Assembly: GCF_009498735.1 (NCBI RefSeq)
Contig: NZ_ML762426.1
Span: 253,810-308,217, forward strand
Reading direction: 5' to 3'
Source of the DNA: Gracilibacillus oryzae
GTDB taxonomy: Bacteria; Bacillota; Bacilli; Bacillales; Amphibacillaceae
DNA length: 54,408 bases
Under the pieces are notes generated by a model that worked only from the letters and a program-made list of their open reading frames with translations, made no database searches and had not been told where the DNA came from. The position numbers and the translations under genes were made by a program. Shown piece by piece: positions 8,204-54,408 of this stretch (positions are counted from its first letter, which is position 1; each line of letters opens with the position of its first letter).

Positions 8204-8596
8204 CTAAGCCTTCAGAACTTTAATAGAATCTGCTAATTTCTGCGCGAAATCTTCCGGTTTTTCTACAGATTGAACATGCAGATATTTGATGCTTGGCTCG
8301 GCAAATAGCCAATGATTATGCAATGCTGTTATGGTTAAATCGTTTTTTCCAAGTGCTCTTGTGAAATCAGGAATTTCTTCAGGGAGCAGAACAATTTCCG
8401 CATGATTTAGTGCAGTGCCATCATCTTCTAAAGCTTCAAAATGGATTTCCATGCTTAATTCACTTTTAAACGGTCGCCCTTGGACTGTTACATCTAAATC
8501 TCTTTCTATCTCTGCAGCGCCCATACCTTCCTCTGTTGAAACTTCTGTATCTAGAATTTCTCCGAATTTTTTTGCAATACTTTCTAGATCTGCCAT
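8204..8596 (-). CDS. DUF1259 domain protein (short form)
   Basis: The 130-residue product resembles DUF1259 (LppY/LpqO-type) proteins. Signs are the IAKKFGEIL start, the central LDVTVQGRPFKSELSMEIHFE strand pair, ALNHAEIVLLPEEIPDF, and TALHNHWLFAEPSIKYLHV, with conserved histidines. Family members I know are often near twice this length with a duplicated half, so this is a single-unit form. The biochemical function is unknown. The ATG at 8596 follows AGGAGC. Its upstream region is the first 52-bp repeat array, so any promoter must lie between 8597 and about 8720 or within the array. Confidence 0.7.
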   Translation of the reverse strand: MADLESIAKKFGEILDTEVSTEEGMGAAEIERDLDVTVQGRPFKSELSMEIHFEALEDDGTALNHAEIVLLPEEIPDFTRALGKNDLTITALHNHWLFAEPSIKYLHVQSVEKPEDFAQKLADSIKVLKA

Positions 8597-8722: not shown

Positions 8723-9117
8723 TGCTGACTCAGTCATGAGATAACCGGGAAAACATGGAAGAAGCAGCGAGTGATTTCCGGTTAATCAAGAGATAACCGG
8801 GAAAACGAAAGAGAAGCAGCGAATGATTTCCGGTTAATCAAGAGATAATCGGGAAAACGAGGGAGAAGCAGCGAGTGATTTCCGGTTAATCAAGAGATAA
8901 CCGGGAAAACGAGGGAGTAGTAGTGAGTGATTTCTAGTTAATCAAGTTATAACCGGGAAATTGAAGGAATAGTAGCATGAGTTTTCCGGTTAATCAAGAG
9001 ATAACCGGGAAAACGAAGGAGTAGTAGCGAGTGATTTCCGGTTAATCATAAGATAACCGGTAAAACGAAGGAGAAGTAGCCTTTGATTTCCAGTTAATCA
9101 AGAGATATTAAATTTTA
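8723..9117. repeat. Array 1: eight 52-bp stem-loop repeats
   Basis: Repeat units begin at 8723 (degenerate), 8775, 8827, 8879, 8931, 8983, 9035 and 9087, exactly 52 bp apart. Each has TTTCCGGTTA, a 9-base loop, TAACCGGGAAA (an inverted repeat with one bulge), then a purine-rich linker around GAAGGAGAAGCAGCGAG. The array is intergenic, between the start of the DUF1259 gene and the end of the next minus-strand gene. No open frame runs through it. The last unit decays into A/T-rich sequence near 9117. Confidence 0.9.
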
Positions 9118-9210: not shown

Positions 9211-9438
9211 TTAAACCAATATACTATATTTATGTTTTAATTCGTTTTTTATTACAGTAGCCCAGTACTTTTCATCGAAATGATGGACATATTCTGGGTT
9301 TTCCTCAAGTCTTCTAATAAAACTGGATTCCAAAAGGATATATCTTGCTTCGTTACCAAAATAACGTTTTAATTCTTCTGTTATTTCCAAAATTAAGTCA
9401 AGGTCTAACTCATCTAGATTATAATTTGATTTTCTCAA
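9211..9438 (-). CDS. Small hypothetical protein
   Basis: A 75-residue, acidic and mostly helical protein with no recognised motif. The start is a TTG at 9438 preceded by AAGGAGG at a normal distance, which is strong support for translation. It has no membrane segment or cysteine pair. The upstream 160 bases on the same strand look like the 3' end of another, broken gene whose frame overlaps this start, so the pair may once have been an operon. Short helical proteins in such pairs are sometimes immunity or antitoxin proteins, but nothing here proves that. Confidence 0.5.
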   Translation of the reverse strand: MRKSNYNLDELDLDLILEITEELKRYFGNEARYILLESSFIRRLEENPEYVHHFDEKYWATVIKNELKHKYSILV

Positions 9439-9856: not shown

Positions 9857-10399
9857 ATGAAGGTCTATGTTTTATATGGAAGTTTGTTTGGTCACACAGA
9901 AGTACTAGGTAATGCTGTTGCAGAGGGTGCCAAGCAGGCTGATGGTGCGGAAGTTATTTTCAAGTCGGTGGAGGACGTAGATCCAGACGAGCTTAAAGAC
10001 GCGGCGGGTATAATCTGGGGCTCATCAGGAATCTTCGGTGAACCGAATCCAAAACTGGCAACATTCTTTTCAAAATTAGGACCACTATGGTTTTCAGGAG
10101 CACTCCAAGGAAAAGTTGGCGGGGTTTTTGCGACAACTTCGACTCAACATGGGGGAGTGGAAAATGTCTGCCGAGCATTACAAACGCCAATGCAGCATCA
10201 CGGCATGGTGATTGTTTCCAAGGCTGGGCCAGTAGATGACGACCGCGCAAAATACGGAAACCCTTATGGAGCAACTGCGGTTATCCCTGTAGAAGAGTCC
10301 AAAGATGCACCAATGAACAAGCCAAATGATACCGAAATGCAGATTGCCAGAGAATATGGAAAATTAGTTGCGGAAACTGCGATAAAACTTCATAAATAA
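9857..10399 (+). CDS. Flavodoxin-family NAD(P)H:quinone oxidoreductase-like protein (WrbA-like)
   Basis: The 180-residue protein has the flavodoxin fold: the FMN phosphate loop YGSLFGHTEVLG at residues 7-18, the second FMN loop at GIIWGSSGIFGEPNPKL (about residues 50-66) and the third at FATTSTQHGGVENV (about 93-106), which resembles the WrbA TxSxQHGG motif. WrbA proteins reduce quinones by two electrons using NAD(P)H and protect from redox cycling. The length and motif favour the WrbA group over electron-transfer flavodoxins. The ATG follows AAAGGAGC. It is monocistronic with its own terminator, and lies between repeat arrays 1 and 2. Confidence 0.8.
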   Translation: MKVYVLYGSLFGHTEVLGNAVAEGAKQADGAEVIFKSVEDVDPDELKDAAGIIWGSSGIFGEPNPKLATFFSKLGPLWFSGALQGKVGGVFATTSTQHGGVENVCRALQTPMQHHGMVIVSKAGPVDDDRAKYGNPYGATAVIPVEESKDAPMNKPNDTEMQIAREYGKLVAETAIKLHK

Positions 10400-10438: not shown

Positions 10439-10572
10439 TAGTTAACTAGAAGATCTATGATAAATAAGGAGTCGGCTTTTGATATGGATAATTTAGGAAT
10501 CATTCGAAGTGAGAAATTTTATGATAAAACAGCCTGCATAAAAAGCAGACGACCATGTAGTAATTTAAGAGA

Positions 10573-10950
10573 TTTCCGCTTTTTACTGTGATAAACGGGA
10601 AATCTTGATTGATAGAACGGCAGATTTCCGCTTTTTACTGTGATAAACGGGAAATCTTGATTGATAGAACGGCAGATTTCCGCTTAATCATGAGATAAAC
10701 GGGAAATGCCGGTAGAAGAAGCAAGAGATTTCCGGTTATTCATGAGATAAACAGGAAATCCCGGTAGACGTAGCAGGAGATTTCCGCTTAATCATGAGAT
10801 AAACGGGAAATCCCAGTAGACGGAGCAGCAGATTTCCGCTTAATCATGAGATAAACGGGAAATCCAGGTAGAAGGAGCAGCAGATTTCCGGTTAATCATG
10901 AGATAAACGGGAAATCCAGGTTGATGAAGCAAGAGATTTCCAGTTAATAC
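10573..10950. repeat. Array 2: eight 52-bp stem-loop repeats
   Basis: TTTCC starts fall at 10573, 10625, 10677, 10729, 10781, 10833, 10885 and 10937, all exactly 52 bp apart. The unit is TTTCCGCTTA, loop, TAAACGGGAAA, then a linker such as GTAGAAGGAGCAGCAGA. It is clearly related to array 1. The first two units are identical over the full 52 bp, which points to a recent duplication; the others vary. The array lies between the flavodoxin terminator and a hydrolase remnant. Confidence 0.9.
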
Positions 10951-11171: not shown

Positions 11172-11251
11172 ATAGTTCGATATTACCTTGAATCATCCTT
11201 TGATATTCTGTAAAAGAACCCCTCTATATGAAAATCAAAGGAGAAACAAAA

Positions 11252-12730
11252 ATGAAATCATACATAAAAATACTTCTGGTTATAATTGCTGTAATCATTA
11301 GCGGCTTGATGCCCCAAACCGTACATGCGGAAGCTGATGAAAGAATAAAACAATTTGTGGAAGAGCAAAGAGAAATTAGTGAAATTCCAGGAATCTCATT
11401 GGTCATTGTGGAAAAAGGGAAGACAGTTTTTCAAGAAGGCTTTGGTTATGCAGATATAGATGCGAAAACTCCCGTAACCTCTCATACATTATTTGAGTTG
11501 GGATCTACGGCGAAGGCATTTACAGCCCTGGCCATTTTACAATTGGAAAAAGAAGGGCTGTTACAGCGATCAGATAATGTTCAAAAATATATTCCATGGC
11601 TGGAGTTGGAATATAATGGAGAACCACAGACAATTACGATCGACCAACTGCTTCATCATACCAGCGGGATCGCCTCTAAGACTATCGTTCATATTCCTGA
11701 AAGTAATGCAGAAAATGCACTTGAAGAGACAGTAAGAACTCTGCTTGATCAACACCTAAACCGTAAACCAGGAAGCTCTTTTGAATATGCAACAATCAAT
11801 TATGATGTATTGGGACTTGTAATCGAAAAAGTAGCCAAACAACCATACGATACATATATCAAACAGCAAATTTTAGAAAAAGCCAATATGCAAGATTCCT
11901 ATGCAGGGTTGCATCAAGTCAAATCCGATGAAATGGCAACAGGTTATAAAATTGGCTGGATGAGCGCACAACAATACATCCCACCAATATACCGCGGTAA
12001 TATCCCTGCTGGTTATGTTATCAGCAACCCCCAGGATATTGCCGAATGGATGAAACTTCAGCTCGGTAACAATCCTGACAGTCCAATTGATCGACAACTG
12101 ATTCAGCAATCACATGTGCCTGATCAATCAGTAGAGCCTTTTGACAAGAATACTTACTATGCAAGTGGCTGGTCTGTTATGACAAAAGATGATCAAAAAT
12201 ACATCTACCATGCAGGAGAAAATCCGACTTTTTCATCTTATATCATCATGCAGCCTGATAAACAGTTGGGAGTGGCCGTATTATCGAATATGAATTCCTC
12301 TTTTACACCCAGCAGTGGGCAAAATGTCCTGAATCTATGGGAAGGAAAGAATATTAGTACAAACCATACCGACAGCTACCAGAAAATTGACCAGATCGCA
12401 ACAATTGCCTGTATTGTCGTCTGTGTGATCGGCGTTCTTTTCCTCCTTTTCTCAATGAGAGTGCTTCGGCAGATTATCACAAAAAAACGAAGCCGAGCTG
12501 TCAACGTAAGGAGAATTATTTTTTTTATAATTCATGTGTTGGTTGCTGTCGCTGTTTGGATAATGATCATTTGGTTGCCAAAAATCCCTGGAATGACCTG
12601 GAAATTTATCGAAGCATGGGCCCCTGTCTCGGTTACAACACTTTTATATATGGCACTAGCCGCAAGCCTGCTTTATTTTTTATTGGGAGTGTTGCTTATT
12701 CTTACTAGAAAAAGTAGGAGCATAGATTGA
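11252..12730 (+). CDS. Membrane-anchored serine hydrolase, beta-lactamase/penicillin-binding protein family
   Basis: The 492-residue protein has a signal segment (residues 1-27, ending VHAEA), a class C beta-lactamase-like domain (about 30-375) and three C-terminal membrane segments. The nucleophile motif is STAK at residues 85-88, the third motif is HAG in YIYHAGENPTFSSY, and the Y-x-N position reads YAT in FEYATINYD, so the usual Asn is replaced or shifted. Relatives include FmtA/PbpE-like enzymes acting on wall polymers or D-amino esters outside the cell. The ATG at 11252 has AAAGGAG upstream; the ATG at 11228 lacks a site. The upstream operator suggests induction by envelope stress, by inference. 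It is probably not a true antibiotic-resistance beta-lactamase. Confidence 0.8.
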   Translation: MKSYIKILLVIIAVIISGLMPQTVHAEADERIKQFVEEQREISEIPGISLVIVEKGKTVFQEGFGYADIDAKTPVTSHTLFELGSTAKAFTALAILQLEKEGLLQRSDNVQKYIPWLELEYNGEPQTITIDQLLHHTSGIASKTIVHIPESNAENALEETVRTLLDQHLNRKPGSSFEYATINYDVLGLVIEKVAKQPYDTYIKQQILEKANMQDSYAGLHQVKSDEMATGYKIGWMSAQQYIPPIYRGNIPAGYVISNPQDIAEWMKLQLGNNPDSPIDRQLIQQSHVPDQSVEPFDKNTYYASGWSVMTKDDQKYIYHAGENPTFSSYIIMQPDKQLGVAVLSNMNSSFTPSSGQNVLNLWEGKNISTNHTDSYQKIDQIATIACIVVCVIGVLFLLFSMRVLRQIITKKRSRAVNVRRIIFFIIHVLVAVAVWIMIIWLPKIPGMTWKFIEAWAPVSVTTLLYMALAASLLYFLLGVLLILTRKSRSID

Positions 12731-12779: not shown

Positions 12780-13095
12780 ATTGAAACCCCATAGCATCAA
12801 AACTAGAGATAGAGCGAGGAATTATGATGTTATGAAAGCATCATAGCATCAAAAGTCGGGATAGAGGCAGGAGTTATGAAGGTAAGGAGCCCTCAACCTA
12901 TCAAAACTCCCACACGACCGAAGAGTTATGATAGGAAAAAGCTCTCATCCTATCAAAACCCCCGCGCGACCAAAGAGTTATGATAAGAAAGAGTGTTCAA
13001 CCTAAAATAAAGAACAAATCCAAGCCACCAAAGCAGAAGATTTGTCGATAAAACAAAAATAAAGAACAAATCCAAGCACCAAAGTCCAAGATTTG
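12780..13095. repeat. Array 3: 52-bp stem-loop repeats of two sequence types
   Basis: ATCAAAA copies begin at 12796, 12848, 12900 and 12952, exactly 52 bp apart, with a decayed copy near 13001. Stems form across unit borders, best as GAGTTATGATAGG, 13-base loop, CCTATCAAAACCC (11 of 13 paired). The array then changes sequence: AACAAATCC begins at 13013 and 13065, again 52 bp apart, with AGATTTGT as the pairing arm. It lies between the convergent serine hydrolase and DUF305 genes. No gene is visible here. Confidence 0.85.
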
Positions 13096-13125
13096 CCTTT
13101 TAAAAAAACATAATAAACTCATCAC

Positions 13126-13171: not shown

Positions 13172-13621
13172 CTATTCTTCCTCTAAATCATCGATATACT
13201 TCTTCATTTCCGCAATTTCTTTCCGCTGGGCTTTTATGATTTCGTCTGCCAGTTCTCTTACTCGCGGATCGGTAATTTCTGCTCTTTCACTTGTCAGAAT
13301 CGCGATAGAATGATGGGGAATCATTGCTTCCATATAGTCCACATCATCGACGAGCGTCTGGCTTCTAAGCAGATAAAGGGAGAAAGCAAATACGACGGCG
13401 CTTCCCGCAAAAATGCCGATATTCACTTTCCGGTTTTTTAACATATGAGACATAAATAACAACATGATAACAGCCATCGTTGCACCCATTAATAAAGCCA
13501 TATAACCCCTTGTCTCACTGAAAAAAATGTGATCAGCTTTGTATGTGCTCCAGTACTTAAAGATAAACATGATAATAGTTGATGTAATAACCATTCCAGC
13601 AAATTTCCAATATGGTTTCAT
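13172..13621 (-). CDS. DUF305 membrane protein (copper-cluster member)
   Basis: The 149-residue protein has three hydrophobic segments (about residues 8-24, 40-60 and 68-86) and then a C-terminal helical DUF305 domain. The domain carries the conserved DYMEAMIPHHSIAILTSE (residues about 97-114) and ends in a charged coiled coil, RKEIAEMKKYIDDLEEE. DUF305 proteins include the periplasmic copper-binding CopM of cyanobacteria, whose His/Met residues bind metal; the MIPHH motif fits this. It is divergent from copB, sharing a 370-base promoter region. Its place beside copB, YdhK, CueP and a copper-storage protein supports a role in copper tolerance, by inference. Confidence 0.85.
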   Translation of the reverse strand: MKPYWKFAGMVITSTIIMFIFKYWSTYKADHIFFSETRGYMALLMGATMAVIMLLFMSHMLKNRKVNIGIFAGSAVVFAFSLYLLRSQTLVDDVDYMEAMIPHHSIAILTSERAEITDPRVRELADEIIKAQRKEIAEMKKYIDDLEEE

Positions 13622-13848
13622 TTTTATACACTCCTTTAAATTAAATTCTATCTCTTACATCCCCGGCACTTTTGCAGAAAGTGTGCAAGATATAAATTTT
13701 TTTAATTCAATTTCAAATAACCAAATCAGCTTTGGATATAATACAGATATAAATTGGATATGCAGGTAGTTTCAAACAATTAAATATTGTCTTAATTTTA
13801 GGAATCTTTCCTTTGCATAACGTAACAAGACGGAATATGTTATTTATC

Positions 13849-13952
13849 TGCAAAGCAGATGGTTCGTTATTTACGTAAAGTATTTCAACTCGATCGTTCC
13901 AATTATATTGAGATTTAATAGATGATCTTCACACTTTTTGCATTTTTTATGG
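13849..13952 (+). promoter_or_regulatory. Two TGCA-N7-TGG sites in the DUF305/copB divergent region
   Basis: TGCA-AAGCAGA-TGG lies at 13849-13862 and TGCA-TTTTTTA-TGG at 13939-13952. The same motif occurs upstream of cueP/the kinase gene and of the copper-storage gene. It is a candidate binding site for the response regulator at 18958. The remainder of 13622-13991 is A/T-rich, with no gene seen. Confidence 0.45.
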
Positions 13953-13991
13953 GAATAACATATCAGACACTAGATTGAAGGAGGTATTTCT

Positions 13992-16016
13992 ATGAAGCAA
14001 CATCATCATCATACAGAAGGAGAACAGCATTCTGAAGAGGGTCATCTGCATGAAAGCAAGGAGGATCATGCGTCTCATCATGCCCATATGGTAGATGACT
14101 TCAAAAAAAGGTTCTATTTATCGCTGGTAATTACAATTCCTATATTGATTCTTTCACCAATAATTCAAGATTTATTAGGAATAGATTTTAGCTTTCCTGG
14201 CGCTAGGTATATTTTGTTTGGTCTTTCATCATTTATTTTCTTCTATGGAGGGAAGCCATTTCTACAGGGGGCATGGGAAGAGCTAAAGAAAAAAGAACCC
14301 GGAATGATGACATTGATTTCCTTGGCCATAACCGTTGCTTATGTCTACAGCTCTTTAACGGTTTTTGGACTTTCTGGTAATAACTTTTTTTGGGAATTGG
14401 CAACCTTGATTGATATTATGCTGCTTGGTCACTGGATTGAAATGAAATCAGTAATGGGTGCTTCACGTGCCTTGGAAGAATTGGTCAAACTAATGCCGTC
14501 TGAAGCTCATCTCATCGATGAAGCAGGGAATATACAAAATGTCCCAACGTCTAAGTTAAAACAAGGGGACAGGTTGCTGATAAAGCCAGGTGAGAAAGTG
14601 CCAGTGGATGGAGTCATTATAAAAGGAGAGTCCTCACTTGATGAATCAATGTTAACAGGGGAATCAGTGCCTGTAGATAAATTTAAAGAGGATCAGGTGA
14701 TCGGCGGTTCGATTAATGGAGAAGGTTCCTTAACTGTTTCCGTCGAAAAAACAGGAGAAGACAGCTATCTTTCCCAAGTGGTTACAATGGTTAAAGAAGC
14801 TCAAGAATCGAAGTCGCGCACACAGGACCTTTCCAATAAGGCGGCAAAATGGCTTTTTTATATAGCTTTACTTTCCGGTATTATTACTTTGACAATCTGG
14901 CTGTTCCTTGGACAGAGCTTCGTATATGCTTTGGAAAGAATGGTAACAGTAATGGTCGTTGCCTGTCCGCATGCGTTAGGATTAGCTGCACCACTTGTAG
15001 TTGCACGGTCAACTGCGATTGCTGCGAAACGCGGATTGTTAATTAGAAATCGAGCTAGCTTTGAAGGAGCCAGAAATCTTGATGCAATCGTATTTGATAA
15101 AACTGGAACATTAACTGAAGGAAGGTTCGGGATTACTGATATAAAGACGATGGGGAATTTTGATGAAGAACAAGTGATATTACTAGCTGCATCATTAGAA
15201 GCTCAATCAGAGCACCCAATTGCAAAAGGAATTTTTGAAGAAGCGGAAAAAAGATCACTGCAATTGGTGGAACCAGAGAACTTTCAATCTCTTACCGGTA
15301 AAGGCCTTAAAGGGATCGTAAATGGAAAAAGAGTGATGGTCGTAAGTCCGGGTTTCATGAAGGAAAAAAACAATTCCTATGATGAAAAAACATACCTGGA
15401 TCTATCGGAAGAAGGAAAGACCGTTGTGTTTGTATTAGTTGATGGACAATTGGCTGGAATCATTGCTCTTGCTGATCAAGTGAGAGAAAGCTCGAAGATA
15501 GCCATGAAAAGACTGAAGGAACTGAACATCCGATCAATGATGCTGACAGGAGATAACAAACAGGTAGCGAATTGGGTAGCTGGAGAATTAGACATGGATG
15601 AGGTATATGCAGAAATTCTACCACATCAAAAAGCTGATAAAATTAAAGAACTAAAAGAACAAGGTCTAAGGACAGCTATGACTGGTGACGGTGTAAATGA
15701 TGCTCCTGCCCTTGCCAACGCTAATCTTGGGATAGCAGTAGGAGCAGGAACGGATGTCGCGATGGAGACAGCGGATGTAATTTTGGTAAGAAGCAATCCG
15801 AATGATGTGGTTTCTATCATCGCACTTTCCAAAGCTACTTATAAAAAAATGATTCAAAACCTCTGGTGGGCTGCTGGCTATAATATAGTCGCCATTCCAC
15901 TTGCTGCAGGAGTGCTATATAAAATGGGAATTGTTTTAAGTCCTGCGGTTGGTGCAGTACTTATGTCACTTAGTACAGTGATTGTGGCGATTAATGCCAG
16001 ATTGCTCAAAGTATAA
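13992..16016 (+). CDS. copB: Copper-translocating P-type ATPase, CPH (CopB/P1B-3) type
   Basis: The 674-residue pump has a His-rich N-terminus (HHHHTEGEQHSEEGHLH and more, residues 4-33) in place of CxxC metal domains. The membrane metal motif is CPH, in VVACPHALGLAAPL, rather than CPC, which marks the P1B-3 group reported to export Cu or Ag ions. Catalytic motifs are complete: GES actuator loop (LTGESVP), DKTGTLTEG phosphorylation site near residue 374, SEHPIAKGI, MLTGDN and TGDGVNDAPAL. The start has GGAGG 6 bases upstream. It heads the copper cluster, and a TGCA-N7-TGG site lies 40 bases before its start. It is monocistronic, with a terminator after it. Confidence 0.93.
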   Translation: MKQHHHHTEGEQHSEEGHLHESKEDHASHHAHMVDDFKKRFYLSLVITIPILILSPIIQDLLGIDFSFPGARYILFGLSSFIFFYGGKPFLQGAWEELKKKEPGMMTLISLAITVAYVYSSLTVFGLSGNNFFWELATLIDIMLLGHWIEMKSVMGASRALEELVKLMPSEAHLIDEAGNIQNVPTSKLKQGDRLLIKPGEKVPVDGVIIKGESSLDESMLTGESVPVDKFKEDQVIGGSINGEGSLTVSVEKTGEDSYLSQVVTMVKEAQESKSRTQDLSNKAAKWLFYIALLSGIITLTIWLFLGQSFVYALERMVTVMVVACPHALGLAAPLVVARSTAIAAKRGLLIRNRASFEGARNLDAIVFDKTGTLTEGRFGITDIKTMGNFDEEQVILLAASLEAQSEHPIAKGIFEEAEKRSLQLVEPENFQSLTGKGLKGIVNGKRVMVVSPGFMKEKNNSYDEKTYLDLSEEGKTVVFVLVDGQLAGIIALADQVRESSKIAMKRLKELNIRSMMLTGDNKQVANWVAGELDMDEVYAEILPHQKADKIKELKEQGLRTAMTGDGVNDAPALANANLGIAVGAGTDVAMETADVILVRSNPNDVVSIIALSKATYKKMIQNLWWAAGYNIVAIPLAAGVLYKMGIVLSPAVGAVLMSLSTVIVAINARLLKV

Positions 16017-17576: not shown

Positions 17577-18980
17577 ATGTTTAATAAATTATCAATAAAA
17601 ATTGGACTTTTATTTTTTCTATTTCTATTTATCATTGAGATTTTCGTTTATTTTATCCTTTATACAAGTATAGCGAATGAGCGGATTGATGAAGTGATGA
17701 ACAATTTATTAGCACGCGCCAATACCCATAGTGCTGTGTTAGAAAGCAACTTTGATCCATCCACATTGGAGCATGTTGCCATTATGGAATCAGAATCAGA
17801 TTTTGCCGTTATTATTACTGATGGTAATGGGGAGATCATTATTCATTCCGATCCTCTGGAAAAAGAAATGCGTGAAGTAATAAAACATACAGACTATGAA
17901 GAGGTGCCACGCGAGGGGAAAGTAGTGGAACAAAGCTGGAAAGAAAAACAATACATTGCCGTCGATAGTCCGATAACTCTCGATGAAACGCATCACGGTC
18001 ATGTCTTTATGTTCGCCGATACCTCGATTGTGAAAAGGATGGTGAACCATTTAACTGGTCAGTTTGTTTTCATCGGACTTATCACAATTCTAGTTACGAT
18101 TATTACTATTTTTATTCTGTCTCGTTTTATTACATTGCCATTAGTGAAAATGAAAGAGGCAACAGAGCAGATAAGCAAAGGAAATAATAAAGTGGAATTA
18201 CATACAGAGCGTAATGATGAACTGGGCGAATTGGCTGGTTCGATCATGAAGCTATCGAATGATCTCGAACGATTGAAAAATAACCGCAATGAAGTTCTTG
18301 CAAGCATCTCGCACGAACTAAGAACACCATTAACTTATATCAAAGGATATGCAGATATCATAAGCAAGCAGGATGTTACAGAGGAAGAAAGAAAAGAATA
18401 CCTGGCCATTATACGGGAAGAGACAAAAGATTTAACAGCATTGGTTAAAAGTTTGTTTGATCTTGCGAAAATGGATGAAAATAAATTTATCATTCATCGA
18501 AGAAAAGTAGATCTTAGAGACTTAATCCAAACGATAGAAGAGCGAATAAGCCCAGCACTGGAAGAAAAAAATATACGATTTTCGGTATTATGTCCAAGTA
18601 ATATTCAAGCAAATATTGATCCTGACAGAATGCAGCAGGTTTTACTGAATATTCTGGACAATGCCAGAAAACACACACCAGAAGGGAAACAAATTTCATT
18701 AGAGGTTTCCCGGAATAATAGCGGAGTAACGATCACCATTTCTGATGAGGGAGAAGGAATCCCGGAGGAGGATCTCCCGTATCTGTTTGAACGTTTATAT
18801 CGGGTAGAAAAATCCCGTTCCAGAGAAAGAGGCGGGTCTGGCCTAGGGCTGGCAATTGCAAAAGAAATCATTAAATTGCACAAGGGGACGATTGAAATCG
18901 AAAGTGAACAAGGGAGAGGAACGACTGTGAAGATTCAATTAACAAGGAGTGAAGGCAATGGCGAAAGTTCTCTTAGTTGA
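17577..18980 (+). CDS. Sensor histidine kinase (HAMP, HisKA, HATPase), copper-cluster two-component system
   Basis: The 467-residue kinase has a membrane segment at about residues 8-30, an extracellular sensor of about 125 residues, a second membrane segment at about 160-182, a HAMP domain, the H-box ISHELRTPLTYIKGY (His near residue 247), the N-box ILDNARKHTPEG, and the ATP-lid motifs DEGEGIP and GGSGLGLAIAKEI. Residues about 35-155 hold several acidic and His residues that could bind metal, but this is a guess. The ATG at 17577 is preceded by TGAGG; the ATG at 17565 overlaps that site. It overlaps the regulator gene by 23 bases. Position among copB, cueP, ydhK and the copper-storage gene suggests copper sensing. 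Confidence 0.9.
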   Translation: MFNKLSIKIGLLFFLFLFIIEIFVYFILYTSIANERIDEVMNNLLARANTHSAVLESNFDPSTLEHVAIMESESDFAVIITDGNGEIIIHSDPLEKEMREVIKHTDYEEVPREGKVVEQSWKEKQYIAVDSPITLDETHHGHVFMFADTSIVKRMVNHLTGQFVFIGLITILVTIITIFILSRFITLPLVKMKEATEQISKGNNKVELHTERNDELGELAGSIMKLSNDLERLKNNRNEVLASISHELRTPLTYIKGYADIISKQDVTEEERKEYLAIIREETKDLTALVKSLFDLAKMDENKFIIHRRKVDLRDLIQTIEERISPALEEKNIRFSVLCPSNIQANIDPDRMQQVLLNILDNARKHTPEGKQISLEVSRNNSGVTITISDEGEGIPEEDLPYLFERLYRVEKSRSRERGGSGLGLAIAKEIIKLHKGTIEIESEQGRGTTVKIQLTRSEGNGESSLS

Positions 18981-30620: not shown

Positions 30621-32522
30621 ATGAATAAGATAACGTATGAAAAGTTACAATATAACGAATTAAAACAACTAGTGAAGTCTCATTGTGTAAGTGGACTAGG
30701 AAAACAATTATTAGATAAATTGAAGCCAAGTTCCAACATCAAAGTAGTAAAAAACCGGTTGAATGAAACAACAGAGGCGCGGGCAATATTAGATGCAGAA
30801 GGGCATGTGCCATTTTCAGGAATTTCCAATATTCAAAGCATTATTCAAAAACTTGAAAAAGGGATCATGCTGGAACCAGGCGAATTGGTCAGTACATCGG
30901 ATTTTTTAAGAGGATGCAGTAAAATGAAAAGTTTTATGTTAAAAAGGGAATTCTTTGCACCTGTGCTGGCATCGTATGCGAATTCAATGTCGGAATTTCA
31001 AAGTGTAGAAGAAGAAATTAACTTTTCCATTAAAGGAAATAGCGTTCATTCAGCTGCAAGCAAAGAATTAAAGAGAATACGAAGTAGTATGGAATCAACA
31101 GAAGAAAAAATTAAAGATCGTTTAGATAAATTTTTAAAAAATAGTGCGAATAAGAAGTACATTCAAGAATTTTTTATTAGTAAAAAAGATGAGCGATATA
31201 CGATTCCAATTAAAGCTTCATATAAAGGTCAGGTCTCAGGAAAAATAATCGAAGTTTCTTCTAAAGGTTCTACGGTCTTTATCGAACCAAATACGATTAC
31301 AAAATTAAGTGATGAACTCGCAAGTTTGAAAGCTGAAGAAGCAATAGAAGAATATCAGATATTATCGACTCTATCAGGAATGCTCTTAGAGAACATTTAT
31401 GAAATTAAGATAAACTTAGACCTTATTAGCCAATATGATATGGTATTTGCCAAAGCCAAATTCAGCAGGCTGATAGGTGGAATGGAGCCCAGATTAAATA
31501 ATCAAGGATATATTAAATTAGTGAATGTTAAACATCCACTTTTAGCAAGCGATGCTGTACCACTTAATTTTGAGATTGGGAAAGATTATCGCAGCTTAAT
31601 TATTACGGGTCCCAATGCTGGCGGAAAAACCATTGTTTTAAAGACAATTGGATTATTAACATTAGCAACTATGTTAGGGCTTCATATTTCTGCTGATAAG
31701 GGAACGGAGATTGCGGTATTTGAAAACATCTTCGCAGATATCGGAGATAATCAAAGTATGGAAAATGCATTAAGCACCTTTTCCTCACATATGAAACATC
31801 TCGCAGAAATTATGAGCCTGTCAGATAATAATACGCTATTACTATTTGATGAAATAGGCAGTGGTACAGAACCAAATGAAGGAGCTGCCCTTGCTATTTC
31901 AATATTGGAGGAATTTTACTATATGGGATGTATAACTGTAGCGACAACTCATTATGGTGAAATAAAACGTTTTTCCGAATTGCATGATGATTTCATGAAT
32001 GCAGCAATGCAATTTAACAACGAAACATTGGAGCCAATGTATCAATTAGTGATAGGGAAATCAGGAGAAAGCAATGCGCTTTGGATTTCCAAAAAGATGA
32101 ACATACAGGAAAAAGTATTAGAAAGAGCAAAAGAATATATGGAAAATAAAGATTATCATTTAGAACGTGTGAATGGGGATAAGATCAGGAAGCCTAAGGT
32201 TGTCCATGAGAAAACGGAAGAGATGTACGAATTTAAGAAAGGGGACAGGGTAAAATTATTAAACCAAGATGACTTTGGAATTGTATATAAAGAAATGGAT
32301 AATTTCTATAATGTTGTGGTGTTCTATAATGGAGAATTTATTGAAGCAAATGTTAAGCGGATTTCCCTTGATATATCAGCGAAGGAATTATATCCAGAAG
32401 GGTATGATTTAGAGACATTGTTTATCGATTACAACACTCGGAAAATGGAGCATGATATAAAGCGGGGTTCGAAAAAAGCCCTTCGGAAAATACAAAAAGA
32501 AATTAGGGAAAATAGAGATTGA
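30621..32522 (+). CDS. MutS2-like ATPase lacking the Smr nuclease domain
   Basis: The 633-residue protein matches the MutS2 family: helical core/lever (about 1-290), then an ABC-type ATPase with Walker A GPNAGGKT (about 330), Walker B LLFDEIGSGTEP (about 410), a THYGEIK switch, and a KOW-like segment (FKKGDRVKLLNQDDFGIVY, about 540). It ends in a basic helix (KRGSKKALRKIQKEI). Full MutS2 proteins are near 780 residues with an Smr endonuclease at the C-terminus; that domain is absent and there is no sign of a broken 3' end. It may work in ribosome-collision rescue or recombination control without the nuclease. The ATG has GAGGAG. It stands alone, with a terminator after it. Confidence 0.88.
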   Translation: MNKITYEKLQYNELKQLVKSHCVSGLGKQLLDKLKPSSNIKVVKNRLNETTEARAILDAEGHVPFSGISNIQSIIQKLEKGIMLEPGELVSTSDFLRGCSKMKSFMLKREFFAPVLASYANSMSEFQSVEEEINFSIKGNSVHSAASKELKRIRSSMESTEEKIKDRLDKFLKNSANKKYIQEFFISKKDERYTIPIKASYKGQVSGKIIEVSSKGSTVFIEPNTITKLSDELASLKAEEAIEEYQILSTLSGMLLENIYEIKINLDLISQYDMVFAKAKFSRLIGGMEPRLNNQGYIKLVNVKHPLLASDAVPLNFEIGKDYRSLIITGPNAGGKTIVLKTIGLLTLATMLGLHISADKGTEIAVFENIFADIGDNQSMENALSTFSSHMKHLAEIMSLSDNNTLLLFDEIGSGTEPNEGAALAISILEEFYYMGCITVATTHYGEIKRFSELHDDFMNAAMQFNNETLEPMYQLVIGKSGESNALWISKKMNIQEKVLERAKEYMENKDYHLERVNGDKIRKPKVVHEKTEEMYEFKKGDRVKLLNQDDFGIVYKEMDNFYNVVVFYNGEFIEANVKRISLDISAKELYPEGYDLETLFIDYNTRKMEHDIKRGSKKALRKIQKEIRENRD

Positions 32523-48615: not shown

Positions 48616-50601
48616 CTATTGTAGGGTAAGCTCATCCTGATGGATAAAGCCTTCTTTGCCATCTACTGTCACATAATACCATTCTCCCTGCTGGAAGACT
48701 GTATTAACTTTTGCGTTTTTTTGCAGTTCGGCAATGACTTCATAACCTTGCTCTAATGCATCTGATCTAATGACAACATCATCTTTGTTTACGACTGCAT
48801 TGCCATCTTCTGCAGTTAAAGGCACATTGTTCGATCTTACAGGTGAATCGTCCTCTGTAGCGTCCGTATCTTCACCATTTTCCTGATCTACTGAATCAGT
48901 CGTTTCTTCGGCAGTGTCTTCGGTTGTTTGCTCATCTTTCTCTTCTGTATCAGGGTCTTGCTCTGTACTGGGAGTTTCTTCAGCTTGCATTTGCTTCATT
49001 TTTGCTTCTGTTACAAGATAGTCGCCATGCACCCAGCCAGTTTTGCCGTTTGCTGTAATCTTGTACCAGACATTGTTATGGCCGACGATCGTTACTTTTG
49101 TTCCTTCAGGCAATTGTGTAATCACATCATAGCTTGTGGTAGGACCTGTCCGGAAGTTCAAGTAATCAGCCGTTGTATATCTGATTTGACCAGCTAAGCT
49201 TGTATCAACAAAGTATTGTGCCAAACCTGTTGGCTTCGATGTTTTGCCAGGCTGATTGTTGAATGCCGGCACATCAAAGTGAAGTACTTTGTTATCAAGC
49301 AGGCTGTACATTGAATCCATTTTTTCTGATTGGATGGTTGCCCACATTACATGTGTTGCGTATTGCGGATATCCCGGGCTGTCCGGATTCCATCTCATTT
49401 TGTACAAGGTGTTCTGGCCATCATTTATATAGTTATTGGCAATATCTGTTGCCCCGCCAATAATCGCATCTTTTACCGTAAACCACTTGTTATCAAACGC
49501 GTATTTCGCGCCGCCTCTGATTGGGTTACTGTCTCGTGCGCCATATCCGTATACATTGTAAACAGTATGTTCTGCTTCTTCTTCTGACACAATGTTCCCT
49601 TTATCATCAACAGGAATTCCTTTTGCCAGACTGGAAGCACCATTGCCTGTTTCATGCAGAGCATGGGCAATCAGGTAGATTTCATTCACATTGTTTTTCT
49701 TTCCTGCTTCAATAAAGGCACTCGCCTGACCTGTTAATACACCTTTATTTGTCAGGATTTGTCTGTTAATTTCGTTTGCGTCACCGCCAGCAGTTTTCGA
49801 CAGATCAAGGAACTGGAAGAATCCGCTGGTTCCCTGTGTGAAGTTGCTAGGGTTGGCATAGTATTCTATCATTGCACTGCTGGCGATATAAATACCGGCA
49901 CCATCTGCTTTTGGTGTTCTTGTCATTTGTGTATTTACCATATCGGCAAAAGAATAATTATAGTGTGTCTTCTCTACAACGATTGTTTGCGGATTGTCTT
50001 TTTTATTAAGCAAGCGAACGATAACGGCTGCTGTTTCGCCTCTTGTTGTAAAATCTTTAGGTGCAAAACGATTGCCGCCTTTTCCAACCATGATGTTTAA
50101 GTGGAGCATAAACTTAACAGATGAATGGAATACAGGATTGATCTCGTTGTTATCCGCGAATGTCAGCGGCTTTTCCCCATAGGGAATTCCCTCGGCAGTT
50201 GCGGCACGGTGAAGAATGGAAGCCATCTCTTGTCTGGTAATATTGTCATTTGGCTTGAAGTCTCCGCCTGGATAACCGGAGATGAATCCATGGCTTGTCC
50301 CGATAGAAACGGCATCATAGTACCATTCCCCTTCCTTAACGTCTGAGAAGGTTTTGGTGTCTCCATTCGCAGACAGATCAAGGGCTCTTACTAGTAAAGA
50401 AGTGAATTCTGCTCTGGATACTTGTTTATCCGGCCTGTAGGTGCCATCTTCATAACCCTTGAACACGCCCTTGCTGACCAAGCTTCTTATCTGATCCTCA
50501 AAAAAGTGGCCAGAAAGATCATCTGCTGCAGATGCAACTCGTGGTGACAGGAATCCGAGAACTAATGATAGACTGAGTAGACAGGTAAAAAACTTTCTCA
50601 T
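48616..50601 (-). CDS. SLH-anchored N-acetylglucosaminidase with SH3 domains
   Basis: The 661-residue secreted protein has a signal peptide (1-25, ending VASAAD), three SLH domains (about 28-75, 90-138 and 150-198), a glucosaminidase domain (about 205-440) and two bacterial SH3 domains (about 475-535 and 595-661) joined by an acidic, Glu/Thr-rich linker. The glucosaminidase shows YIASSAMIEYYANPSNF, AHALHETGNGASSLAKG (the catalytic Glu is probably in HETGNG) and NVYGYGARDSNP. SLH domains attach to secondary wall polymer, so this enzyme trims peptidoglycan at the cell surface. The gene is divergent from the amidase; the two probably serve the same surface layer. TagA and the flippase lie downstream. 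Confidence 0.93.
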   Translation of the reverse strand: MRKFFTCLLSLSLVLGFLSPRVASAADDLSGHFFEDQIRSLVSKGVFKGYEDGTYRPDKQVSRAEFTSLLVRALDLSANGDTKTFSDVKEGEWYYDAVSIGTSHGFISGYPGGDFKPNDNITRQEMASILHRAATAEGIPYGEKPLTFADNNEINPVFHSSVKFMLHLNIMVGKGGNRFAPKDFTTRGETAAVIVRLLNKKDNPQTIVVEKTHYNYSFADMVNTQMTRTPKADGAGIYIASSAMIEYYANPSNFTQGTSGFFQFLDLSKTAGGDANEINRQILTNKGVLTGQASAFIEAGKKNNVNEIYLIAHALHETGNGASSLAKGIPVDDKGNIVSEEEAEHTVYNVYGYGARDSNPIRGGAKYAFDNKWFTVKDAIIGGATDIANNYINDGQNTLYKMRWNPDSPGYPQYATHVMWATIQSEKMDSMYSLLDNKVLHFDVPAFNNQPGKTSKPTGLAQYFVDTSLAGQIRYTTADYLNFRTGPTTSYDVITQLPEGTKVTIVGHNNVWYKITANGKTGWVHGDYLVTEAKMKQMQAEETPSTEQDPDTEEKDEQTTEDTAEETTDSVDQENGEDTDATEDDSPVRSNNVPLTAEDGNAVVNKDDVVIRSDALEQGYEVIAELQKNAKVNTVFQQGEWYYVTVDGKEGFIHQDELTLQ

Positions 50602-50908
50602 TTTGTGACTTTTCCTCCTTATAAATATGTAAGTTGACTGATGAGAAATCTGCTGAAAATATTTCCAATAGTCTATTGAAAATATTGCGGAGTGTGATAT
50701 ATTGTAATGAGTAAAACAATGGAAACGAATTAATCTAGTAATCTAGTAATCTTTCATTAACACAATTTCCCACACGCTCAAGCATACATCACTTTCTCCT
50801 TTTGGTAAAGAGGATATTATTCCTATTTTCCTCTAATTTTACAAATTGAGAAAATGCTAGTTTTCCATATACTACTAAACTATTTTACATAAGAAAGGAA
50901 AATGAAGA
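50602..50908. promoter_or_regulatory. Divergent promoter region between two SLH-hydrolase genes
   Basis: 307 bases without a gene. It is A/T-rich and includes a short tandem repeat AATCTAGTAATCTAGTAATC near 50733-50752. AAGAAAGGA precedes the amidase start at a normal distance, and AAGGAGG precedes the glucosaminidase start. No promoter element was chosen with confidence. Confidence 0.45.
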
Positions 50909-52336
50909 ATGCAGAAGAAAGTTCTATGCTCCGCCCTGTTTTTGATGGTGTTATCCCTCGCTGTTTTTGGCCAGGCAGTATCAGCGAAATCATTACCGGA
51001 TGTTCCGGAAAAGTATGCTGACATGATTAACCCTTTAATTGAAGAAGGGATTATCAGCGGGTACACAGACGGTACGTTCAAGCCAAATAATGAAGTAACA
51101 AGAGCTGAGGCAGCAACGATGATTGGAAAGGCACTAGATTTAAATGGTGATCAAACATCATCCAGCTTGTTTACAGATGTGGACGCATCCCATTTTGCCT
51201 CAGGTTATATCGAATCCGCTGTTAAAGAAAAAATTGTACTAGGTTATCCTAACGGCGAATTCAGACCAGAAAATTCGATTAACAGGGGAGAAATGGCGAT
51301 CATTATTTCCCGTGCGTTTGATCTGAGTGAAACTGCAGAAATCAGTTTTTCCGATGTTGCGGGCACGAATTACGAAGTAGAGGTAAGTAAAGTTTACGCA
51401 AGCGGAATTGTCTCAGGATACCCTGACGGCACATTCAGACCAGACAAGTCCATTAATCGGGCAGAGTTCTCGATCATGATGTACAATGCGCTGAACCCGG
51501 TTGTTGATAAGCCGCAGCCAAAGCCGGATCCAGAGCCTAAGCCAGAACCGAAACCTGAGCCAAAGCCAAAGCCAGAACCGGACAAGCCGATAGCAGTAAA
51601 ATATGTGAATGTTACAACATCACTTAATGTGCGCAGCGGGCCTGGTACATCTTACGCAAAAGTTGGCAGTTTATACCGAAACAATCAAGTAAACGTAATG
51701 AAATATGCCGGAGATTGGGCGCAAATTCAATCAGGCACGATAAAAGGTTATGTACATACAGATTATTTAATGGATAAAAAAGAAGAACTAAGAGGTATTA
51801 TTGCAATTGATGCAGGTCACGGTGATCAAGATCCAGGAGCTGTAGCAAATGGTGTCAGAGAGAAGGATCTGAACCTTGATGTTGCGAAATATGTCCAAAA
51901 ATATCTGGAAGCAGAAGGCATCAAAGTGATCATGACAAGAACAGATGATACGTTCCTATCACTGGGCAGGCGTGTGGAAGTTGCAGAGAATGCGAATGCT
52001 GATGCGTTTATCAGTATCCATGCCAATGCCGCAACAGCAAGTGCTAATGGAACAGAAACTTATTATTCTGCAGCTTCATTAAATAGCAGAGCAGCAGACA
52101 GCAAGCAGTTAGCAGGATTTGTTCAGACAAGGTTAGTTAAGGCATTAGGTACAAATGATCGTGGCGTGAAAGAAGCTGGATTCCAGGTAATCAAAAATAC
52201 TTCCTTGCCTTCCGCACTTGTAGAATTAGGTTTCTTAACAAACCAAGGTGATGTAAAAATCTTGCTTGCTAAAAAAGAAGAAGCAGGAAAAGCAATTGCA
52301 CAAGGAATCATGGATTATATGAATTGGAAGGAATAA
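50909..52336 (+). CDS. SLH-anchored N-acetylmuramoyl-L-alanine amidase
   Basis: The 475-residue protein has a signal peptide (1-26), three SLH domains (about 28-75, 88-135 and 145-192), a Pro/Lys/Glu-rich linker of KPEP-type repeats (about 195-228), an SH3 domain (about 230-285, NVRSGPGTSYAKVG) and an Amidase_3 domain (about 295-475). The zinc site is expected in IAIDAGHGDQDPGA and SIHANAA, and the catalytic Glu in ALVELGFLTN. This enzyme cuts the amide bond between muramic acid and L-alanine. It lies 4 bases before the protease gene, so both are one operon. The sequence of SLH motifs (EGIISGYTDGTFKPN) resembles those of the neighbours, so the set probably shares ancestry. Confidence 0.94.
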   Translation: MQKKVLCSALFLMVLSLAVFGQAVSAKSLPDVPEKYADMINPLIEEGIISGYTDGTFKPNNEVTRAEAATMIGKALDLNGDQTSSSLFTDVDASHFASGYIESAVKEKIVLGYPNGEFRPENSINRGEMAIIISRAFDLSETAEISFSDVAGTNYEVEVSKVYASGIVSGYPDGTFRPDKSINRAEFSIMMYNALNPVVDKPQPKPDPEPKPEPKPEPKPKPEPDKPIAVKYVNVTTSLNVRSGPGTSYAKVGSLYRNNQVNVMKYAGDWAQIQSGTIKGYVHTDYLMDKKEELRGIIAIDAGHGDQDPGAVANGVREKDLNLDVAKYVQKYLEAEGIKVIMTRTDDTFLSLGRRVEVAENANADAFISIHANAATASANGTETYYSAASLNSRAADSKQLAGFVQTRLVKALGTNDRGVKEAGFQVIKNTSLPSALVELGFLTNQGDVKILLAKKEEAGKAIAQGIMDYMNWKE

Positions 52337-52340
52337 TGAA

Positions 52341-53981
52341 TTGAAAAAACTATTTTTAATCATCGCTTTATTTCTTTTTGTCACAACGAACAGCCTGGAA
52401 ATAGAGGCAAGTGAAGAGTCTGCAGAAACAAGAGTAATCGCAGGTTTTGACAAGTCGATTGATTTATCTGTTCTTGAAGGAATCCCATATCAATTGCATC
52501 ATACACATGACAGCATTGATGCTGTATCCATCTCGTTACCATCCGATTATGTTGATGGCTTATCAAAGATAGACGAAATAGACTGGGTAGAAAATGATCA
52601 GGTAGTCAAAACAAACTTCCAATCGTTAAGCTGGGCGAATGATGTAATCAGCAGTAATTTCTATCAGGATAACAGCATAACAGGGAAAGGTGTCGAAATC
52701 GGTGTGATTGATACAGGAATAAGAATGGACCATCCAGATTTAAACGTAGTAGATGGTGTGAGTTTTGTTGAAGGAATGTCCTCCTATGAAGATAATAATG
52801 GTCACGGTACGCATGTTGCAGGTATTATTGGTGCACTGAATAATGATGAAGGTGTCGTAGGCGTTGCACCAGATACTGACCTTTACGCGATCAAATCATT
52901 GGACATTAACGGAGAAGGACGACAGGCGGATATTATCGAAGGGGTTGAATGGGCAATCGCACAAGACTTGGATATTATCAATCTAAGTGTGACAACTCCA
53001 ATCCCGTCGATAGCATTAAAAAAAGCAGTCGAAGCAGCAGATGAAGCAGGAATCCTGGTTGTCGCAGCTTCCGGAAATGCAGAAGATGGAGAAGGACAAA
53101 TTACCGATGATGTCCTCTTCCCCTCACGTTTTTCCAGTGTGATAAGTGTTGGCGCGATTGATAAAAGATTAGAGAAAACCTACTTTTCCTATCAGGGCGC
53201 GTCACTGGACTTTGTCGCACCAGGTGAAGATATCTACAGTACGTATTTCGAAGCCCCTGATTATATTACAATGAGCGGAACATCAATGGCCGCGCCGTAT
53301 GTTACAGGGATATTGGCACTATATAAAGAAGTGTATCCAGATATGGACAATCAGTCGCTGATAAAAATTGTCCAAAACAAAGCCAAAGATATTGGCGCAA
53401 AAGGCAGAGACGATGTATACGGCTATGGATTGATTCAAGGACCGGACAGCTGGTTCTGGGATGTTGATCCATCCAGCTGGTTCGCAGATTATGTCTATTT
53501 ATTACGCCAGTCTGAATATATCGGCGGCTATCCTGACGGCTCCTATCAGGCAGAAAATCAAATTACAAGAGGAGAAGTCGCAACAGTGATTGGTTCCATT
53601 TTAGAAATGGACGGAACAAACCGCTTAACGGACTTCACTGACGTAAACCTCGATTACTTTGCTTCAGGATATATTGATTCCCTGACAGCAGCTAATATTG
53701 TCTCAGGTTATCCAAACAAGACATTTATGCCGGAAAAAGCAATCACAAGAGGAGAAGCAGCAGTCCTCATCCAAACCGCTTTTTCATTAAATGCCGACAG
53801 CGAGAATCAGTTCGGTGACGTGAATGCTGACAGATTCTATGCAGATGCCGTCAATGATCTAGCAGTGCTGGACATCATATCAGGTTATCCGAACGGTCAG
53901 TTTAAGCCGGAAAATCAAATATCAAGAGCAGAATTTTCCGTTATGGTCGGGAAAATTTTAGACGAAGCGTTTCAGAGTTAG
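52341..53981 (+). CDS. SLH-anchored subtilisin-type serine protease
   Basis: The 546-residue protein starts with a signal peptide (about 1-24) and an I9-type inhibitor propeptide (about 30-88, TRVIAGFDKS, DEIDWVENDQVV). The S8 domain (about 100-360) has the complete triad: Asp124 in VIDTGIRMDHP, His155 in NGHGTHVAG and Ser315 in MSGTSMAAPYVTG. Three SLH domains (about 375-546) end the protein at the C-terminus, unlike the two hydrolases, in which they are at the N-terminus. It would be bound to the wall by the polymer, not by sortase. The start is TTG at 52341 with GGAAGGA about 10 bases upstream; the ATG at 52336 leads only to a short frame. It is co-transcribed with the amidase. Confidence 0.93.
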   Translation: MKKLFLIIALFLFVTTNSLEIEASEESAETRVIAGFDKSIDLSVLEGIPYQLHHTHDSIDAVSISLPSDYVDGLSKIDEIDWVENDQVVKTNFQSLSWANDVISSNFYQDNSITGKGVEIGVIDTGIRMDHPDLNVVDGVSFVEGMSSYEDNNGHGTHVAGIIGALNNDEGVVGVAPDTDLYAIKSLDINGEGRQADIIEGVEWAIAQDLDIINLSVTTPIPSIALKKAVEAADEAGILVVAASGNAEDGEGQITDDVLFPSRFSSVISVGAIDKRLEKTYFSYQGASLDFVAPGEDIYSTYFEAPDYITMSGTSMAAPYVTGILALYKEVYPDMDNQSLIKIVQNKAKDIGAKGRDDVYGYGLIQGPDSWFWDVDPSSWFADYVYLLRQSEYIGGYPDGSYQAENQITRGEVATVIGSILEMDGTNRLTDFTDVNLDYFASGYIDSLTAANIVSGYPNKTFMPEKAITRGEAAVLIQTAFSLNADSENQFGDVNADRFYADAVNDLAVLDIISGYPNGQFKPENQISRAEFSVMVGKILDEAFQS

Positions 53982-54028: not shown

Positions 54029-54320
54029 TGGAGGAGGAGGTGAGGTGGATGCCGTGAGTGGGCTGGAGAGCGGGCGTGAAGATGTTTGGGAGGAGGCTGA
54101 TTGCTTTGAGAGTTTCGCGGAGGAGAAGTGAAGGTATTCAGAAGGAGTCTGAATGCCATGAGAGGAGCGGGAAGGAGAAGCGAAGGCATTCAGAAGGAGT
54201 CTGAATGCCATGAGGGGAACGGGAAGGAGGGGTGAAGGTATTCAGAAGGAGTCTGAATGCCATGAGGGGAGCAGGGAGGAGAAGTGAAGGTATTTAGAAG
54301 GAGTCTGAATGCCATGAGGG
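54029..54320. repeat. Array 4: six 52-bp palindromic repeats
   Basis: Units begin at 54029 and 54081 (both degenerate), 54133, 54185, 54237 and 54289, exactly 52 bp apart. The core GGCATTCAGA-AGGAG-TCTGAATGCC is a perfect inverted repeat of 10-bp arms in the unit at 54185 and nearly so in the others. The linker is purine-rich on the plus strand (GGGAAGGAGAAGCGAA). The arm sequence is unlike those of arrays 1-3, but the period and the linker style are the same. The final 90 bases of the window, after the array, show no gene. Confidence 0.9.
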
Positions 54321-54408
54321 GAGTGAGTCAGGGTTAAGCCAGTATAATTGTGTAAAAAGAAAAGCCATTATAGCTTTCCTCATGATACAATGTTTTCAAC
54401 CACGATAA

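Follow-up and report, generated by a model that had tools for sequence, protein, structure and literature searches.

Tandem repeats with units of 51–53 nt are a described feature of Bacillus genomes, 1886 cases of which, from 176 genomes and about 30% of the species, were catalogued by Subirana and Messeguer in 2021 (PMC8161180), the 52-nt class being depicted there as constant in length, variable in sequence, non-coding, represented by several unrelated families per genome, species-specific yet partly conserved between strains, and often holding short sequences together with their reverse in the same unit, the role proposed for it being that of a protein lattice within the nucleoid or of small RNAs. 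RNA-seq reads from such repeats in B. coagulans are described in the accessible part of a companion paper (PMC8625621), and the 20–21-nt Bacillus tandem repeats (PMC8161180) likewise combine a fixed length with a variable sequence and are also found in the genus studied here (in G012, a complete congener). Other known systems resemble these arrays in part. REP/BIME elements with RAYT transposases share the intergenic inverted repeats, which prompted a replication-linked idea, whereas the 52-bp arrays are tandem with a fixed period and have no tie to a Y1 transposase; CRISPR arrays share the alternation of a partly palindromic repeat (here, a 34-bp core) with a variable stretch (18 bp), whereas the linkers of the 52-bp arrays are related within an array (heterozygosity of 0.19–0.26) and many arrays per genome are seen in place of a single locus; and the Bacillus stem-loop families Bhal-1, Bant-1 and bcr1, going by the accessible part of their description (PMC2267715), share the nature of intergenic stem-loop repeats but are interspersed units of 72–167 bp, with no match of a 52-bp period reported in that part.

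The window, i.e., the whole stretch of 54,408 bp that was analyzed (C3:253810-308217 of the 4.63-Mb draft genome of Gracilibacillus oryzae, hereafter G000), contains arrays that are members of this published 52-nt Firmicutes satellite class, having in common with it the dominant period (19 of 32 tandem rows, see below), the non-coding place and the presence of unrelated families of the same length in a single genome. The core observation was already known, and the sequence-only reading, to which no named Bacillaceae repeat of this description had occurred, was wrong in this regard. What the present analysis adds to the published account (PMC8161180) is the orientation with replication, the rarity of indels, the conservation of arms versus linkers, the in-register joins between families, the empty or refilled orthologous sites and the finding that hairpins are not general: the words “orientation”, “leading”, “terminator” and “intergenic” have zero occurrences in its full text, no mention was found there of replication orientation, gene-relative position or terminators, nor of arms being better conserved than linkers, of families joined in register or of orthologous sites that lack an array, and a literature search among sources that were available in part turned up no further paper on this point.

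An autocorrelation of the whole window at all periods from 10 to 300 gave 52 and its multiples at four places, and one long period apiece (192, 276 and 174) at three others, while TRF assigned a period of 52 to 8734-9107 (7.2 copies), 10570-10948 (7.3 copies) and 54121-54323 (3.9 copies), as well as to two adjoining rows of array 3, 12871-13004 (2.6 copies) and 13004-13113 (2.1 copies). The four arrays claimed beforehand are, hence, all present, their spacing of “exactly 52” being true of arrays 1, 2 and 4 and broken in array 3 by one step of 61. Array 1 (8723-9117, plus strand, family A; delimited by TRF, autocorrelation and gene context) is built of units reading GATTTCC NN TTAATC NNNN GATAAA NN GGAAA[TA]C, a 34-bp core followed by an 18-bp purine-rich linker, and lies between minus-strand genes (8204-8596 and 9211-9438), running with replication and against both of them. 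Array 2 (10570-10950, plus strand, family A; TRF and gene context) is preceded by a terminator-like hairpin and has plus-strand neighbors on both sides, an NAD(P)H:quinone oxidoreductase-like gene (9857-10399) and a class C beta-lactamase/PBP-like gene (11228-12730). Array 3 strings together three families, all on the plus strand: two C-type units (12780-12885, CATCAAAA anchors at 12795 and 12847), two to three B-type units (12886-13003, TATCAAAAC anchors at 12899 and 12951, TRF row 12871-13004) and two E-type units (13004-13113, GAACAAATC anchors at 13012 and 13064, TRF row 13004-13113), with anchor steps of 52, 52, 52, 61 and 52, so that the C to B join is in register (52) and the B to E join is not (61). 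Array 4 (54034-54323, plus strand, family D; TRF 54121-54323, autocorrelation 54034-54370) has a compact stem, GGCATTCAGA AGGAG TCTGAATGCC, and a purine-rich linker of about 27 bp, longer than that of family A, and is situated downstream of 52341-53981 (a mycosin-like S8 peptidase), close to the right-hand end of contig C3. Each of arrays 1 and 2 comprises seven units, array 4 has 3.9 (by TRF) and array 3 has two to three per family with six anchors altogether, the cut-off in PMC8161180 having been at least four units per array. As for the arms, said earlier to differ between arrays, the period is indeed kept while the arms change, except that arrays 1 and 2 share one arm family (a cluster of 17 members).

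The source genome was sampled by 40 regularly spaced 20-kb stretches (contigs C1-C13 and C15), which together with the window make 41 unpicked sources, and by 10 further stretches picked for carrying family A, which were kept apart from the period counts; 1,001,227 of 4,632,697 bases were examined. TRF found 32 tandem rows in the unpicked sources, 19 of them with a period of 52, four with 21, three with 24 and six with other periods occurring once each, and at least one 52-bp row was seen in 11 of the 40 stretches and in the window. Neither a lack of further 52-bp arrays nor a multitude of other period lengths, the outcomes that had been named as speaking against a fixed period, was encountered in the 1,001,227 bases sampled; judging by the TRF rows, the unit steps and the indel comparison, a fixed period with changing arms holds genome-wide, and its length is maintained by something. 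All sources of this genome taken together hold 39 rows of 52 bp, which fall into sequence clusters of 17, 12, 5 and 2 plus three singletons, and none of these 39 arrays overlaps a gene by more than 30 bases (own gene caller). Some families in the congeners have units of 51 bp throughout (L168 of G011, G012, L087 of G015 and L120 of G014). A long 21-bp array of 18.6 copies, GCAAGAAGAGAGCGGGAAGTC, is also present in the 52-dominated source genome (L058, C3:120001-140000, positions 17588-17971).

How strictly the length is kept can be appreciated from 35 arrays of the source genome, where 198 of the 203 unit steps equal 52 (the rest being 51 three times, 53 once and 104 once), and neighboring units differ at 1286 of 9828 compared bases; in array-free intergenic DNA that is orthologous between G000 and G016, 8 gap openings and 82 mismatches were counted over 359 aligned columns. 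About 4 length changes were seen in the arrays versus about 125 expected, i.e., relative to the number of base differences, they are about 30-fold less frequent than in intergenic DNA nearby, a deficit inflated to some extent by TRF favoring regular arrays. The substitutions are unevenly distributed as well, the heterozygosity within arrays being 0.084 in the core versus 0.259 in the linker for family A (14 arrays, 116 units), 0.048 and 0.064 in the arms versus 0.243 in the linker for family B (12 arrays, 56 units), and 0.052 and 0.042 versus 0.195 for family C (5 arrays, 28 units), with units containing letters other than ACGT dropped (118 to 116 for A and 57 to 56 for B); the arms are conserved and the linkers are not. 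The linkers do retain a purine bias on the leading strand (0.68 in A, 0.59 in B and 0.64 in C vs. 0.52 in array-free intergenic DNA). Two joins between families are in register (one in the window, 12847 to 12899, and one in L035, 4457 to 4509), and others are out of register, by one base in L032 (53), by several bases in L059 and at the B to E join of the window (61). An array in G016 alternates two 15-nt linkers of equal length with 2 of 15 positions in common; compensating gaps between them are not claimed, as shuffles reach the alignment score in 7.4% of cases. A comparison of decay between edge and center units, in which the register was lost after indels, showed no difference (means of 0.782 and 0.782) and is given no weight here. 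A short motif shared by the 37 family consensuses is weak, with CAAAA in 15 of the 37 (shuffles: 5.0) and only CAAAA-like words standing out, and the whole-pair dyad test gave p ≤ 0.05 in 11 of the 37 families.

Hairpins, the feature by which these arrays were initially described, turned out not to be general. A 10–13-bp inverted repeat in every unit was too strong a claim: perfect stems score mostly 5–10, and of 52 array consensuses taken from three genomes, 30 have a stem that exceeds 95% of shuffles and 22 do not. The 39 arrays of the source genome fold better than shuffles (RNA z of −2.79 for the leading and −2.76 for the lagging strand; DNA z of −3.02 and −2.78), and the 33 arrays of the complete congener chromosome, G011, do not (RNA −0.38 and −0.98; DNA −0.88 and −0.78), which speaks against stem-loops as a general design. 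Stem-loops are thus common, not defining, and, since the arrays of G011 show no overall gain in folding, the hairpin is not the feature being preserved. Mispairs are fixed even within the stem of family A (A.A at pair 11/22 in 99 of 116 units), and G.T pairs do not exceed A.C ones (18 vs. 17 in A; 7 vs. 8 in B), which together fit sites in duplex DNA better than folded RNA; no Rfam family was found in the window.

With the direction of an array taken from its purine-rich strand and the leading strand from the sign of the GC skew of the stretch, 36 of the 39 arrays in the source genome run with replication (14 of the 39 are on one contig; 16 of 19 without the pattern-picked stretches), those against it being in L072, L075 and L078. 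The purine-rich linker, thought to be always on the plus strand, is there in the window, where plus is leading (GC skew of +0.084), and is on the minus strand in other contigs: in this genus, the purine-rich strand is the leading strand, not the plus strand as such. When similar arrays were paired and turned to the leading strand, their direction by sequence agreed in 107 pairs and disagreed in 20 in G000, and agreed in 8 and disagreed in none in G011, the pairs not being independent in either case. The family A pattern (up to 3 mismatches) matches the whole of G000 58 times on eight contigs, minus on C1, C5, C19 and C24 and plus on C3, C14, C17 and C22, the strand being the leading one as judged from the sampled stretches (one C5 stretch has a near-zero skew). 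Mapping the contigs onto G011 by DNA similarity gave seven links, too sparse for placing them. The GC skew of G011 itself changes sign near 0.5 and 3.0 Mb, and 33 of the 34 arrays in its sampled stretches, 20 of which were picked by the main-family pattern, run with the leading strand, whichever side of the skew change they are on; among the first 100 of 201 main-family matches listed, two break the leading-strand rule, both in one array. This array (L274, C1:1405834-1406072), the sole exception of the 34, has both flanking genes on the minus strand and follows neither genes nor fork, a recent inversion being one possibility. Main-family loci with at most 1 mismatch are, among the matches listed, found at 1.17–4.17 Mb plus one at 11.6 kb, and are nearly absent from the terminus region (from about 4.2 Mb via position 0 to 1.1 Mb).

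The replication orientation may be a trait of the genus, as G367, a complete B. coagulans-like genome found via a published repeat, is not polar, or not clearly so: its family 1 is plus at 14 and minus at 2 of 16 loci, plus on both sides of the skew change, among 100 of 220 matches listed, outside of which the minus matches mostly fall, and a near-palindromic second family is mixed within both arms (9 loci, 4 plus and 5 minus). In G012, another published family has 8 matches, every one of them minus and within the minus-skew half.

Arrays with both neighbors called in the source genome (n = 37) are situated between tandem genes in 25 cases, convergent ones in 12 and divergent ones in none, with divergent gaps making up 26,011 of the 123,145 intergenic bases in a background sample, and those of G011 are distributed as 18, 14 and 2, respectively. 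Between tandem genes of G000, the purine-rich strand is in gene sense in 20 of 25 cases. Where both neighboring genes run against replication, arrays nonetheless follow replication in 5 of 6 cases in G000 and in the single case in G011 (3829172-3829341), and between convergent genes, they do so in 11 of 12 and 14 of 14, respectively; their direction is, therefore, better explained by replication than by genes. Arrays also tend to sit behind terminators, with 21 of 43 facing gene ends separated from the array by a terminator-like hairpin (baseline of 59 of 155 genes without arrays), although the detector employed is weak.

The turnover of arrays can be followed along 11 kb of conserved gene order in L035 of G000 and L173 of G016, which are 72–78% identical: one orthologous gap is occupied in G000 by a nine-unit family A array and consists in G016 of about 60 bp with no array, another has C and B arrays in G000 and is devoid of arrays in G016, and in a third, located behind the same gene, the B array of G000 has as its counterpart in G016 a 52-bp array whose arms are quite different, showing that arrays turn over quickly between species. 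Arm families are not strictly species-specific, and the “no sequence conservation” of PMC8161180 needs softening, since a published arm family crosses genera: the TGTC..GACA family (B. coagulans/litoralis, Table 1 of that paper) is found in 9 of 159 genomes of this taxonomic family and in 4 of 46 genera, the steps being 51 or 52 for those arrays that are listed. The 51-bp array in L120 of G014 (277-464) has arms, GATTTGTTGAT/CAACAAATC, that resemble family E of G000 (L075/L078), so this arm family, too, crosses species. The shorter period class is prominent in G012, where 9 of 15 TRF rows (20 samples) are 21-bp arrays and one 51-bp array is present; unlike the 52-bp repeats, the 21-bp ones span two helical turns, not five, and their purine-rich strand in G012 does not track the GC skew. 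Among the 80 loci of a named-genome scan, 52-bp arrays were seen by TRF only in L209, a contig of Ornithinibacillus gellani in which two 52-bp and four 21-bp arrays occur within 22 kb, i.e., both period classes in one genome. A mobile origin was considered as well, and array 1 had no match in 72,556 plasmid or 50,697 phage records.

52 bp amounts to five turns of the helix and 21 bp to two. The reading we favor, at a probability of roughly one in three, is that each array is an oriented lattice of putative protein sites on double-stranded DNA, in line with the protein that measures spacing considered in the sequence-only reading. The arms would be the binding sites and the linkers spacers, the length of which matters and the sequence of which does not; the 52-bp spacing would keep successive sites on one face of the helix, where a bridging or polymerizing candidate nucleoid protein could bind side by side. 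Arrays would grow and shrink by recombination or slippage between units, units or runs of the wrong length would be lost, and the orientation might be due to the polarity of the protein or to its being loaded at the fork. This reading is preferred because it would explain the conserved arms, the free linkers, the kept length and the whole helical turns at once. It has its difficulties: unrelated arm families within a genome would demand several proteins, or one that reads spacing over sequence; no co-occurring protein was found in a search limited to Y1 transposases; some families are 51 bp throughout, which is 4.9 turns; joins out of register occur (61 in the window, 53 in L032, and L059); G367 is without clear orientation; the indel deficit is somewhat inflated by the TRF bias to regular arrays; and the short motif shared across the 37 families is weak. 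A doubtful extension is that a putative protein or machine recognizes the five-turn spacing and the direction rather than any sequence and loads fork-wise, the 21-bp arrays being its two-turn version, in which case oriented 52-bp lattices would be kept chromosome-wide with their sequence free to change. Close behind the lattice comes a possible, though on the whole not expected, scenario in which the arrays are selfish or neutral satellites with no cell function, copied at the fork when slippage or a switch of template occurs on the exposed template of the lagging strand, with a unit length that the copying step determines (e.g., the stretch under one single-strand-binding tetramer). Such satellites would account more simply for an orientation that follows replication and not genes and for the fast gain and loss at orthologous sites, and would also suit the 0 of 37 G000 arrays in promoter-only gaps (as if only harmless places tolerated arrays) and the several unrelated families per genome, but would not account for arms conserved against drifting linkers, which would need selection or a sequence-reading enzyme, nor for two lengths of whole helical turns, for which single-strand copying gives no reason, and the unclear orientation in G367 does not fit them either.

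The remaining explanations fare considerably worse. It is improbable that the arrays act as RNA, i.e., that read-through from the upstream gene yields chains of hairpins stabilizing transcripts or titrating an RNA-binding protein: the folding of the G000 arrays, the gene-sense placement at 20 of 25 tandem-gene sites and the representation of such repeats in B. coagulans RNA-seq (in the accessible part of PMC8625621) would suit this idea, but the G011 arrays fold no better than shuffles, G.U-type mispairs are not in excess over A.C-type ones, 5 of 6 G000 arrays between counter-replication genes follow replication and are hence antisense to those genes, a terminator-like hairpin precedes the array at 21 of 43 gene ends and the window is without an Rfam family. 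Quite unlikely is a REP-like origin, with a RAYT or IS200/IS605 (Y1) transposase generating the units through its action on lagging-strand-template hairpins, to which the inverted repeats of many units (30 of 52 consensuses), the orientation with replication and a single Y1 gene of RAYT-like size in G000 (an open frame of 267 aa, C24:14556-14888) would lend themselves; the units are, however, tandem with no lone unit (those of the 58 family A matches that fall on sampled stretches are all in arrays), and Y1 (PF01797) is present in 12 of 17 genus genomes without tracking the arrays. The RAYT partner envisaged in the sequence-only reading was not borne out, PF01797 being absent from 5 of the 17, including the complete G012 with its 51-bp array, and also from G002 with one weak 52-bp array (2.9 copies). 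The slimmest chance of all is given to guidance sequences for a DNA translocase. Motifs of the SpoIIIE/FtsK type are purine-rich and on the leading strand, as the linkers are, and GAGAAGGG, which we take to be the B. subtilis SpoIIIE signal, is itself polar in both genomes (9 vs. 1 in G000 and 10 vs. 2 in G011), but it appears a single time in each genome's arrays, its rank among 56 octamers of equal composition being 19th and 17th, so that this role, having been tested, is unsupported for lack of enrichment of GAGAAGGG, though a different species-specific signal may exist.

Genomes rarely preserve a length while leaving the sequence free to vary, and this behavior has been without explanation since it was first described; the orientation, the indel deficit, the in-register joins and the filled or empty sites turn an open description into testable claims, the one being put forward for testing that something measures 52 bp on DNA and senses the direction of the fork. 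Were such a protein to be found, it would be a chromosome-organizing factor that reads spacing, and should none exist, the arrays would still be a clean record, provided by nature, of the way in which bacterial replication creates and trims tandem repeats.

Several other genes of the window deserve a mention in their own right. A copper-type P-ATPase of 674 aa beside a CopM-like protein (13172-16016) has its best named matches in Rossellomorea/Bacillus sp. (83–84%), above the best same-genus match (68%), which suggests that it was gained horizontally. A MutS2-like protein of 633 aa (30621-32522) matches positions 2–542 of the 790-position MutS2 model and is, therefore, without the usual C-terminal part. 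Finally, a cell-wall cluster (48616-53981) comprises a glucosaminidase-like protein and the mycosin-like S8 peptidase, the surface-domain repeats of which both match the inl_like_NEAT model.
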